A stretch of DNA of 64,000 nt from Gammaproteobacteria bacterium (GTDB taxonomy: Bacteria; Pseudomonadota; Gammaproteobacteria; Burkholderiales; Gallionellaceae). The DNA is taken from the NCBI GenBank assembly GCA_018814405.1, contig JAHIZO010000005.1, positions 422,684 to 486,683 of the forward strand, written 5' to 3'. Shown piece after piece: positions 27,512 to 30,859 of this stretch. The position numbers were made by a program, and so were the translations under genes. Position 1 is the first letter of the stretch, and each line of letters begins with the position of its first letter. A model generated the notes under the pieces. It made no database searches, was not told where the DNA came from, and saw only the letters and a program-made list of their open reading frames with translations.

Positions 27512-28003
27512 TTATACGAGAAGGGTATTTTTGGACAGCCGGTCAAATACGCCCTGCAATGCCACACGCACCGCCTGCGCTCTCACCTCGTCCCGGTTGC
27601 CGGTGAATTGATGACGCGCGGCCGTGATGGCACCGTCGGCGAGTGCCCAGGCGAACCAGACCGTGCCGACTGGCTTGTCCAGAGTGCCGCCGTCAGGGCC
27701 GGCGATACCGCTCACCGCCAGAGACACCTGCGCCGTACTGTTGCGCAGCGCGCCTTGTGCCATCTCGCGCACGACGGCTTCCGACACCGCGCCATAGGCG
27801 ATCAGTGTGGCTTCCTGCACGCCCAGCATCTGCTGCTTGGACAGATTGGAATAGGTGACGAAGCCACGCTCGAACCAGGCCGAGCTGCCGGAGACGCTGG
27901 TGACCGCCTGCGCGATGCCGCCGCCGGTGCAAGATTCCGCTGTCGCCAACATCATGCCGTGCGCCTTGAGTGCTCCACCAACCTGTGCGGCAAGTACATC
28001 CAT
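27512..28003 (-). CDS. pncC: Nicotinamide-nucleotide amidohydrolase (CinA C-terminal type)
   Basis: 163 residues from ATG 28003, overlapping the metZ stop by one base (TGATG). It converts NMN to NaMN in pyridine nucleotide recycling. The family motif [22 protein letters not shown] and [27 protein letters not shown] are present. It is the short form without the N-terminal COG1058 domain. The position before recA is conserved widely and shows cotranscription in other bacteria. Confidence 0.94.
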
Positions 28004-29172
28004 CACAGTCCCCGTGCCAGATCGTTCTGAATATCGACCACTGCTTCCAGCCCGACCGCGATGCGGATCAAGCCCTCGGTGATGCCGGCCGCCGCGCGTG
28101 CTTCCGGCGTGATACGCGCGTGTGTGGTGGTGGCCGGATGGGTGATGGTGGTCTTGGTGTCGCCCAGATTGGCGGTGATAGACAGCAACTTGGTGTTGTC
28201 GATCACCTTCCACGCTGCCTCCTTGCCGCCTTTCACTTCGAACGCCACGATACCGCCGCCGGTCTTCTGTTGCTTCATCGCCAGCGCATATTGCGGGTGC
28301 GATGGCAGGCCCGGATAAAGCACGCGCGCCACGTTCGGCTGTTGTTCCAGCCATTGCGCCAGCTGCAAGGCATTGGCACTGTGCGCATCCATACGCAGCT
28401 TCAACGTCTCCAGCCCCTTGAGGAACACCCAGGCGTTAAACGCACTCATGGTCGGCCCAGCCGTACGCAGGAAGCCGTACACCGGCTCCATCAGTTTTTT
28501 GCTGCCCAGCACGGCTCCGCCCAGCACGCGGCCTTGGCCATCGATGTATTTGGTGGCGGAGTGGATCACGATATCCGCCCCCAGCTCCAGCGGACGTTGC
28601 AAAACAGGAGTACAGAAACAGTTGTCCACCGCCAATAAAGCACCGCTTCCCTTTGCGACTGCCGCAATGGCTGCGATGTCGGATATCTCGGTCAACGGAT
28701 TGGATGGGGTCTCCAGAAAGAACAACTTTGTGTTCGGCAGCACGGCAGCCTGCCATTCCGCGACATCGGTCGCCGAGACATAAGTCGTTTCCACGCCAAA
28801 TTTTTTGAAGTAGTTGTTGAACAAGTTGATGGTCGAGCCGAACAGACTGCGCGACGCAATGATATGGTCGCCCGCCTTCAACAGACCCATGCAGCACGCC
28901 AGAATTGCAGCCATGCCGCTTGAGGTCGCCACACATTGCTCCGCCCCTTCCAGCGCAGCCAACCTTTCCTCGAACATGCTGGTCGTGGGATTGGTGAAGC
29001 GGGCGTAGATGTTGCCCGGCTCTTCGCCGATAAAGCGTCGCGCTGCTTGCGCTGCATTGTCAAAAGTGAAACTCGAGGTCAGGAACATCGCCTCGCCATG
29101 TTCCATGAAAGGGGTTTGTGCACGCCCTGCCCTGACGGCCAGAGTCTCAAGTTGATATTCGTTGTCAGACAT
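28003..29172 (-). CDS. metZ: O-succinylhomoserine sulfhydrylase
   Basis: 389 residues of Cys/Met-metabolism PLP enzyme. MetZ makes homocysteine directly from O-succinylhomoserine and sulfide. The PLP Lys is in HSATKYIDGQGRVLGG near residue 208. LETLAVRAGRAQTPFMEHGEAMFLTSSF is the typical MetZ N-terminus. ATG 29172 has GGGAGGTG upstream and is preferred over an earlier in-frame start. The leader contains a SAM-II-type riboswitch and an intrinsic terminator, which supports the methionine-pathway role. Confidence 0.95.
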   Translation of the reverse strand: MSDNEYQLETLAVRAGRAQTPFMEHGEAMFLTSSFTFDNAAQAARRFIGEEPGNIYARFTNPTTSMFEERLAALEGAEQCVATSSGMAAILACCMGLLKAGDHIIASRSLFGSTINLFNNYFKKFGVETTYVSATDVAEWQAAVLPNTKLFFLETPSNPLTEISDIAAIAAVAKGSGALLAVDNCFCTPVLQRPLELGADIVIHSATKYIDGQGRVLGGAVLGSKKLMEPVYGFLRTAGPTMSAFNAWVFLKGLETLKLRMDAHSANALQLAQWLEQQPNVARVLYPGLPSHPQYALAMKQQKTGGGIVAFEVKGGKEAAWKVIDNTKLLSITANLGDTKTTITHPATTTHARITPEARAAAGITEGLIRIAVGLEAVVDIQNDLARGL

Positions 29173-29206
29173 CTTCACCTCCCGCGCGGCCGTTCGCACA
29201 CGCAAC

Positions 29207-29240
29207 AAAAAACCCGGAAAGCTTGACGCTAAACCGGGTT
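29207..29240 (-). terminator. SAM-controlled intrinsic terminator before metZ
   Basis: In the metZ direction AACCCGG (29240-29234) pairs with CCGGGTT (29217-29211) and is followed by a run of U ending at 29207. The 5' half of this stem is also part of an alternative hairpin (29253-29228) made by GCTAAA with TTTAGC and CGGG with CCCG around a UGAA loop. The two cannot coexist, which is the layout of a transcriptional switch. Confidence 0.85.
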
Positions 29241-29242
29241 CA

Positions 29243-29295
29243 CCCGCTTTAGCTGTATTTATATAGCGCCCGCAAGCTGTTCCTCAAATCGGCGC
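29243..29295 (-). ncRNA. SAM-II (SAM-alpha) riboswitch aptamer controlling metZ
   Basis: Read on the minus strand, P1 is GCGCC (29295-29291) with GGCGC (29270-29266). Loop 1 begins GATTTGA, as in SAM-II. The pseudoknot P2 is GCTTGC (29277-29272) with GCTAAAGC (29253-29246), leaving the A and U that are unpaired in the family. Loop 3 is the A/U-rich TATATAAATACA, followed by GGG. These match the conserved core of SAM-II RNAs of alphaproteobacterial met genes. Binding of SAM should hold GCTAAAGC in the pseudoknot, free the terminator 5' strand and stop transcription. Confidence 0.87.
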
Positions 29296-29301
29296 AGTCG
29301 G

Positions 29302-29331
29302 AAAGTAGCACCCCCCGCCTTGCTTCGTCAA
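29302..29331 (-). promoter_or_regulatory. Promoter of the metZ riboswitch transcript
   Basis: TTGACG (29331-29326), an 18-base spacer and TACTTT (29307-29302) in the metZ direction. The predicted start at about 29295 coincides with the first base of aptamer helix P1. The -35 box begins right after the purF stop codon, so metZ has its own promoter. Confidence 0.65.
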
Positions 29332-29332
29332 C

Positions 29333-30859
29333 TCACATGGACGAGGCAGACATCGCCAGATCCAACTCCAGCTGATCGTCGTCCGGTGTCTTGTTCGCTT
29401 TGCCCGCGCCACGCGCGGCTTCGATAGCATCCAGATATTCCGGCGTGATGTCACCGGTGATGTACTGCCCGTCGAAGCAGGAACAGTCGAAACCCTTCAA
29501 TGCCGGATTCGCCTTGAACACAGCCGCTTTCAGATCTTCCAGATCCTGATAGAACAAACGATCCGCACTGATCTCGCGGCAGATCTCTTCGTCGCTGCGT
29601 TCAGTGGCGATCAGCTCGGTACGGCTGGGCATGTCGATACCATAAACATTGGGGAACTTGACCGGCGGTGCGGCCGAAGCGAAATACACTTTGCGTGCTC
29701 CGGCATCGCGCGCCATCTGCACAATCTCGCGGCTGGTGGTACCGCGCACGATGGAGTCGTCCACCAGCAACACGTTCTTGTCCTTGAACTCGATGCTGAT
29801 CGCGTTCAGTTTCTGTCGCACCGATTTCTTGCGCATGGCCTGACCCGGCATGATGAAGGTGCGGCCGATGTAACGGTTCTTGACGAAGCCTTCACGGAAC
29901 GGGATACCCAGATGATTCGCCAGTTGCAACGCACTGGGGCGACTGGAATCAGGGATGGGAATGACGACGTCGAAGTCATGCTCCGGCCACTCTTTTTTGA
30001 TTTTGTCCGCCAGATACTCGCCCATGAACAGGCGTGTAGCGTACACGGAGATACCGTCCATCACTGAATCAGGACGGGCGAAATACACATATTCAAAAAT
30101 ACAGGGAGTGAGTTGCGGCTGCTCGGCACACTGTTGGCTAAAGAAGTTCGCTTCCAGATCGATGAACACCGCTTCACCCGGCGCGACGTCACGCAGGAAG
30201 TCGAAGCCCAAGGTATCAAGCGCCACGCTTTCTGAGGCGATCAAGTATTCGATGCCCTCTGACTGCTGATTACTACCCACTACCAGCGGACGGATGCCGT
30301 TCGGGTCGCGGAAAGCGAGCAAACCGTATCCCGCGATCATCGCCACCACGGCATATGCGCCTTTGCAACGGCGATGTACACCGGATACGGCGGCGAATAT
30401 CTTCTGCGGGTCGAGTTTGAAACCGGTGGCATTGGCTTGTAGTTCGTGCGCCAGTACATTCAGCAGCACTTCGGAGTCTGAGCCGGTATTGATATGGCGC
30501 AGATCCTGTTTATACATGGCGCTGCGCAGCTCATCGGTGTTGGTCAGATTGCCGTTGTGTGCCAGCACGATACCGAATGGCGAATTCACATAGAACGGCT
30601 GAGCTTCGTTGTGATCGACCGAAGAGCCGGCCGTGGGATAGCGCACATGGGCGATACCTGAATTTCCTTTGAGTGCTCGCATATTGCGCGTGCGGAACAC
30701 ATCGCGCACCAGGCCATTGCCTTTATGCAGGTGGAATGTTCTGTCTTCCAGTGTGGCGATACCCGCCGCATCCTGCCCTCTATGCTGCAACACCTGCAAA
30801 CCGTCATACAGCACCTGGTTCACCGGCGTATTGGCCACCACTCCCAGAATCCCGCACAT
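29333..30859 (-). CDS. purF: Amidophosphoribosyltransferase
   Basis: 508 residues. It commits PRPP and glutamine to purine synthesis. The nucleophile Cys2 in MCGILGVV is exposed after Met removal; there is no propeptide, as in the E. coli type. The PRPP loop [18 protein letters not shown] is near residue 365. It is preceded by cvpA with a 36-base gap. The purF stop is followed at once by the metZ promoter. Confidence 0.98.

Follow-up and report, generated by a model that had tools for sequence, protein, structure and literature searches.

The purF and metZ genes of this genome are read from the minus strand of the window (the whole 64,000-nucleotide stretch of DNA that was analysed), and the gap of 160 bases between them carries a whole leader RNA region. 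The question raised by this locus is what class of RNA precedes metZ and how it might control the gene. An earlier note, made from the letters alone, had proposed a SAM-II-type riboswitch with a mutually exclusive terminator and antiterminator. The analysis described here leads to much the same reading, with the metZ leader very likely being a SAM-II riboswitch with a transcription-termination platform.

The metZ gene and the aptamer

The host is a relative of iron-oxidising bacteria, and the closest MetZ proteins with informative names come from Sideroxydans and Gallionella, the former being classified as Betaproteobacteria, Nitrosomonadales, Gallionellaceae. The gene metZ (28003..29172, minus strand, ATG at 29172-29170) codes for an O-succinylhomoserine sulfhydrylase of 389 amino acids, scoring 725.5 bits against NCBIfam NF006003 (cut-off 522) and 616.7 bits against TIGR01325 (cut-off 510.05). 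Its Shine-Dalgarno sequence, GGGAGGTG (29176..29183, minus strand), lies outside the aptamer, and the purF stop codon is found at 29333-29335 on the same strand.

An Rfam scan of the window at gathering thresholds returned no matches. A low-threshold scan of a 201-base stretch identified a match to SAM_alpha (RF00521, SAM-II) at 29228..29305 on the minus strand (30.6 bits, E-value 1.8e-5), covering positions 1-79 of the 79 of the covariance model; the default scan was empty because this score lies below the gathering score of 36. The Rfam search which the earlier note had suggested as a check therefore gave a full-length match, yet one beneath the family cut-off. It is the single SAM_alpha match in the stretch, and two further sub-threshold matches there (AaHKsRNA41 and ncr1175) were set aside as chance. 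In a scan of the whole genome (2.38 Mb) the same match has an E-value of 4.8e-5, and RF00521 gives just two places, the metZ leader and the metX leader, the latter on another contig with 40 bits and above the cut-off. No RF00521 match was found in any of 14 control genomes. The metX copy had gone unreported in the earlier note, as had the promoter and the complementarity of the P2 5′ strand with the terminator 3′ half, both described below.

The P1 hairpin (29266..29295, minus strand) is formed by GCGCC (29295-29291) and GGCGC (29270-29266), as seen both in the RF00521 alignment and by reading the sequence, with a loop that holds GATTTGA (29290-29284) and GCTTGC (29272..29277). All five inner pairs of P1 are formed in the window, while the outer pair is an unpaired T-T. 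GCTTGC is the 5′ strand of the pseudoknot P2 and pairs with 29253-29246, where the 3′ strand GCTAAAGC (29246..29253) is common to the pseudoknot and the antiterminator; loop 3 (AAAT) lies at 29260-29257. P1, GATTTGA, GCTTGC, loop 3 and the hairpin pair had all been named in the earlier note, and each was found where it had been placed.

With the Rfam consensus of RF00521 the window shares GAUUUG, GCUUGC and GCUAAA. It differs from that consensus in its score below the cut-off and in P2a, the distal pseudoknot pairing, which is one C-G pair followed by two A-G positions; the order-wide consensus reads GCGCC-GATTTGA-CAGCTTGCGGGCGC. The reduction of P2a to a single pair could account for the low score. 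The final 3′ pairing element of SAM-II is likewise absent from SAM-V (PMC2704228, in the part concerned with this element), much as P2a is nearly missing here, and so the aptamer might be thought to belong to SAM-V or to sense another compound such as SAH. This has only the slightest probability, as no match to SAM_V (RF01826) was listed in 29150-29350 at an E-value of up to 10, against 1.8e-5 for RF00521, and the genes served (metX, metZ) are biosynthetic, as reported for SAM-II.

Assignment to SAM-II also agrees with what is described of the class. The metA element (Corbino 2005, PMC1273637) likewise consists of a stem P1 and a pseudoknot P2 in front of methionine or SAM genes, with terminators after P2 in many members. 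The SAM-II riboswitch of Sinorhizobium meliloti metZ precedes the same gene, with a terminator predicted to form on SAM binding (PMC9373788), and differs in its alphaproteobacterial host; its RZ RNA was seen on Northern blots at about 100 nt and was more abundant in rich medium, as given in the metZ part of that paper, whose authors describe the effects of the SAM-II class on gene expression as unstudied before their work. In the tandem SAM-II/SAM-V riboswitches of Pelagibacter a SAM-II aptamer is also followed by a terminator (PMC9481103); unlike these, the window is without a SAM-V match and holds a single SAM_alpha match.

Promoter, terminator and antiterminator

Directly 3′ of the purF stop codon lies a -35 element, TTGACG (29326..29331, minus strand), with an extended -10 element, TGC-TACTTT, 18 bases from it (29302..29310, TACTTT being 29307-29302). 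Among the 48 core-bearing metZ leaders of a named set of relatives (described in the next section), TTGAC is present 40-42 bases 5′ of GATTTGA in 46 and the pattern TGnTA was matched in 44, with a spacer from TTGAC that varies. A crude scan with promoter and terminator consensus patterns gave none of either in the window, a result for which the proposed explanation is the weak -10 hexamer, agreeing with the consensus at three of six positions, together with an internal loop in the terminator stem. From the position of the conserved promoter motifs, transcription probably starts at about 29298-29295, at or a few bases from P1. Corbino 2005 (PMC1273637) also notes, in the relevant passage, that a promoter may lie a few bases 5′ of P1 in SAM-II RNAs. 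There is also a GGGGGG tract within 29300-29316 of the minus strand, overlapping the extended -10, which could fold with a nearby downstream CTTTCC; being mostly upstream of the presumed RNA start, it is probably outside the RNA.

Two hairpins can form behind P1. The antiterminator (29228..29253, minus strand) is GCTAAAGCGGG-TGAA-CCCGGTTTAGC, or GCUAAAGCGGG-UGAA-CCCGGUUUAGC in its RNA form, with a computed energy of -14.5 kcal/mol, GCUAAAGCGGG being at once the pseudoknot 3′ strand and the antiterminator 5′ arm; its pairings include that of GCTAAA with TTTAGC (29233-29228) and that of CGGG (29246-29243) with CCCG (29238-29235). The intrinsic terminator (29210..29241, minus strand; -15.6 kcal/mol) is GAACCCGG...CCGGGTTT, as RNA GAACCCGG...CCGGGUUU, with the arms AACCCGG (29240-29234) and CCGGGTT (29217-29211), and its U-tract TTTTTT lies at 29207..29212; a T-run of at least four is kept in all 48 named leaders. 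Both hairpins need CCCGG and are mutually exclusive, and their energies are near-equal (-28.8 kcal/mol for P1 with the antiterminator and -28.6 kcal/mol for P1 with the terminator). Taken whole, the 121-nt leader does not exceed shuffles in stability (z -0.06), and this test was uninformative.

Step-wise folding, in which the RNA was grown from 29304 in four-base steps under energy models that ignore pseudoknot and SAM, keeps the antiterminator in the minimum-energy structure at every tested length from 76 to 100 nt, the U-tract being complete at 98. At 104 nt the terminator wins, and at 128 nt it is again the antiterminator. Since the antiterminator persists up to completion of the U-tract, polymerase would by default probably read through in the absence of SAM. 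The exclusive hairpin pair of the earlier note is upheld by the shared CCCGG, the energies, the step-wise folding and the antiterminator motif (the complement of GCUAAA at that place), which is kept in 46 of the 48 named leaders; its view that the antiterminator wins without SAM fits the ligand-free folding, where the predicted antiterminator persists to 100 nt. The clearest exception among the relatives is L043, with an aptamer and a differently built terminator and no antiterminator motif; TTGAC is likewise missing from the stretch of it that was scanned.

In the proposed mechanism, RNA polymerase would begin at or near the first base of P1. In the absence of SAM, P2 would fail to hold and the newly made GCUAAAGCGGG would pair with the downstream CCCGGUUUAGC; the antiterminator would take the 5′ arm of the terminator, polymerase would pass the U-tract and metZ would be expressed. 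With SAM bound, GCUAAAGC would be held in P2 with GCUUGC and the antiterminator blocked, AACCCGG would pair with CCGGGUU, and transcription would stop after about 90 nt, plentiful SAM in this way stopping metZ transcription. The ligand, the direction of switching and the 90-nt terminated RNA are here presumed from the known behaviour of SAM-II. The second copy before metX would subject the step preceding MetZ to this signal too.

That near-equality of the two hairpins makes the outcome depend on kinetics, and it lends something to another reading, in which a real aptamer is followed by a hairpin that attenuates constitutively, with SAM acting on translation or not at all. A terminator also follows the riboswitch of Sinorhizobium metA, and no effect of SAM on it is predicted (PMC9373788, in the part on metA). 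The terminator 5′ arm, however, pairs with the ligand-binding strand of the aptamer, by the motif kept in 46 of the 48 leaders, and the promoter between purF and the terminator means that the hairpin is more than a terminator for purF. Action on translation is opposed by the Shine-Dalgarno sequence lying outside the aptamer. A constitutive attenuator is on this evidence unlikely, and SAM-controlled termination is preferred.

Conservation and distribution of the leader

Relatives of the leader were compared in 118 loci taken from the RF00521 searches of the genome, the family and the order, a non-random sample of 58 best-match loci and 60 hand-picked from the listed matches. The core is conserved among them, with GATTTG in 116, TTGC in 118, GCTAAAG in 115 and loop-3 AAAT or AAAC in 93. 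An alignment of 71 of the 100 distinct aptamers, with that of the window first, has the consensus GCGCC-GATTTGA-n-CAGCTTGC-GGGCGC-n-AAAT-n-GCTAAAGCG. Across these 71 aptamers P1 and one outer pair are 98.8% paired, with changes on both sides in two of the six pairs, and the SAM-II structure as a whole has 90.9% of cells paired, compared with 85.5% when shuffled and at most 55.9% when slid.

Covariation, proposed as a check in the earlier note, was found in part. The covariation score is 0.159 against 0.070 for shuffles, with none of 500 shuffles as high, and the sites responsible are the outer P1 pair, a P1 pair changing from C-G to U-A, and P2a, which covaries in the relatives with 67.4% of its cells paired and 30 cells changed on both sides. 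Two of the five measures, the counts of doubly changed pairs and of pair types, do not rise above shuffles, 144 and 199 of the 500 being as high. The three pairs of P2b are invariant in the 71 sequences and so uninformative for covariation. For the SAM-II type itself the covariance model, the conserved core, the covariation and the gene context agree, as the earlier note had held.

The named-leader set comprises 80 loci, of which 48 hold the SAM-II core by a regular expression; as the expression demands an exact GATTTGA, this count is a lower bound. The MetZ proteins behind these 48 leaders are 71 to 97% identical, and all except that of L105 at least 82%. The remaining 32 loci divide into 12 whose titles name Gallionellaceae, one of its genera, or Nitrosomonadales, and 20 with other titles (11 Acinetobacter, 3 Bacteroidetes and 6 more). 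No core was found within 1200 nt of metZ in those 12, although for one of them (L107) the sequence ends at metZ. Conservation of this kind bears on the reading that the aptamer has decayed and no longer binds SAM, its low score reflecting lost function. The 30.6 bits below the gathering score and the P2a of one pair would suit it; against it, 48 named metZ leaders retain the core over the MetZ identities just given, a copy above the cut-off is present in 51 of the 158 family genomes, and the low scorers share the same core. Loss of function is thus very improbable, and a working SAM-II aptamer is the reading retained.

Matches to RF00521 with an E-value of up to 0.01 occur in 112 of 158 Gallionellaceae genomes (51 above the cut-off) and in 178 of 399 genomes drawn evenly from the order (65 above the cut-off), in searches whose filters lose weak matches. 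The family cut-off hides much, as just 65 of the 178 order genomes with a match pass it. Behind 108 of the 118 loci lies a terminator-like hairpin with an energy of at most -10 kcal/mol; at this threshold the terminator finder also called 29 shuffled and 11 coding stretches, and without it 109 of 118 real, 49 of 118 shuffled and 13 of 117 coding stretches. The remark in the earlier note that a transcriptional SAM-II riboswitch is less usual in a betaproteobacterium does not survive these counts, and SAM-II RNAs mostly with terminators had already been described in beta-Proteobacteria (Barrick and Breaker 2007, PMC2258182, in its part on SAM-II). Given that description and the metZ riboswitch of S. 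meliloti (PMC9373788), the riboswitch of the window belongs to an already known kind, of which it is a compact and readable transcriptional example.

The relation of the two P2 strands to the terminator was assessed by comparing the best duplex of each strand with the downstream region against dinucleotide shuffles, in distinct loci with a terminator. At p ≤ 0.05, 56 of 108 loci have a complement of the P2 3′ strand and 34 of 107 have one of the P2 5′ strand; for the control, the loop GATTTGA, the number is 3 of 107. The 3′-strand complement lies within the terminator 5′ half in 52 of the 56, and the 5′-strand complement within the terminator 3′ half in all 34. At least one complement is present in 72 of the 108 loci and neither, at p ≤ 0.05, in 36. 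Since the loci are related, the fairer reading is by groups of similar regions represented by their first members, where p ≤ 0.05 is reached by 6 of 26 (P2 3′), 6 of 25 (P2 5′) and 1 of 26 (control), and p ≤ 0.01 by 5 of 26 for the P2 3′ strand; the excess persists after grouping, at a modest level. In the nine loci without a called terminator the corresponding numbers are 1, 2 and 1. For the window (row L002) p is 0.003 for the P2 3′ strand; for the P2 5′ strand it is 0.07 and not significant, the complement being CAAGCT (29220..29225, minus strand) in the terminator 3′ half, opposite AGCTTG (29278-29273) of the aptamer.

By tblastn, the genes 3′ of the 118 loci are metX (48), metZ (39), a MATE transporter (14), metH (8) and metK (4), with five loci having a downstream gene without assignment. 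A SAM-II aptamer and terminator lie upstream of metH in L122, L138, L142, L145, L151, L158, L186 and L193, and upstream of metK, for S-adenosylmethionine synthase, in L125, L131, L132 and L150. In L022, L023 and L024 a reading frame of 206 codons sits between the SAM-II terminator and metZ.

Seven metX loci (L127, L134, L153, L166, L167, L169 and L176) have GCTAAAGAGGT followed within a few bases by ATG, and no terminator was found in them apart from a poor candidate in L127. The closeness of GCTAAAGAGGT to ATG and the want of a convincing terminator point to occlusion of the ribosome site, and the order would probably contain SAM-II platforms of translational as well as transcriptional type. 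Occlusion of this kind has been discussed for a metX SAM-II riboswitch whose structure is known (PMC10907184 and PMC9373788, in passages on that RNA).

The MATE loci are L119, L146, L156, L157, L162, L168, L171, L177, L178, L182, L185, L189, L194 and L196, the transporter being assigned by tblastn in all 14 and checked in two against NCBIfam. Behind the first terminator, all 14 have a second, variant SAM-II-like motif, roughly GCGCC-GA(T/G)TTAAT-CGACAACTTGC-GGGGCGC-n-CCGCTAAAGCGTCG; an additional hairpin frequently precedes its GCTAAAG. Among the 104 non-MATE loci a second motif is seen in only 4. No match of the 14 second motifs to Rfam SAM_alpha or SAM_V was listed at an E-value of up to 5. 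Tandem SAM-II arrangements are known, with 44 examples (PMC9481103, in its part on tandems), and no link between SAM-II and MATE transporters was found in what was seen of the literature on tandem SAM-II.

The metXZ element, RF02424 and SAM-II

Two other RNA descriptions from the betaproteobacteria resemble this leader. The metXZ element (Leyn 2014, PMC4239095) is described as having six conserved regions, a pseudoknot made from two pairings, and a terminator, before metX or metZ of beta-proteobacteria, with Methylophilales among the metZ cases. It is called novel there, with SAM_alpha found only in Rhizobiales and Rhodobacterales, and the passages on the element propose no ligand. Compared on genes, lineages and layout alone, as given in those passages, it is like the SAM-II leaders. 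One of the latter, the metZ leader L105, is from Methylotenera, of the group in which that paper places metXZ before metZ. Its core reads GATTTGA / CAGCTTGCGGGCGC / ATAAAT / GCTAAAGCG, a terminator is present, and it matches RF00521 with 18.2 bits (E-value 0.056), the low score being due to an insertion in loop 1. Other families among the best 16 sub-threshold Rfam matches of L105 were set aside as chance.

RF02424 (Bp2_287), a Burkholderia sRNA family, matches the strand opposite to SAM-II. In the window this match lies at 29215-29294 on the plus strand (18.9 bits); 11 of 18 further loci have an opposite-strand match of 18.7 to 28.7 bits, and L105 has one at 1354-1423 on the minus strand (22.2 bits, E-value 0.0035); the family cut-off is 70, far above all of these scores. 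Those who described the RNA proposed that it might be a cis-acting element for methionine, and metZ, metX and purF appear in their figure (PMC3521395, in the part on this RNA). Unlike SAM-II, RF02424 is filed as an sRNA, and its strand appears reversed.

Judged from sequence and layout, the metXZ element and, on the opposite strand, RF02424 are probably this SAM-II leader. A wider joint reading, for which the balance tips slightly in favour, would make metXZ, RF02424 and SAM-II one RNA that serves as the main methionine switch of the betaproteobacteria, and would add a Gallionellaceae metZ sub-type in which P2a is nearly gone. The weak match of L105 to RF00521 lowers confidence in the one-RNA reading. 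In the Gallionellaceae sub-type the P2a 3′ strand would be used by the antiterminator, and as both P2 strands can have complements in the terminator, SAM binding may hide both at once. A statement that metXZ is SAM-II was not found in what was seen of the literature on the metXZ riboswitch or on Burkholderia metX SAM-II, which is no proof of its absence.

Should the metXZ element and RF02424 prove to be SAM-II, a ligand would be gained for an RNA element of the betaproteobacteria, and two descriptions would need correction. Were the joint reading true, SAM-II would have been overlooked in this group because most copies fall below the Rfam cut-off, and it would be the main, and probably an old, methionine switch of the betaproteobacteria.
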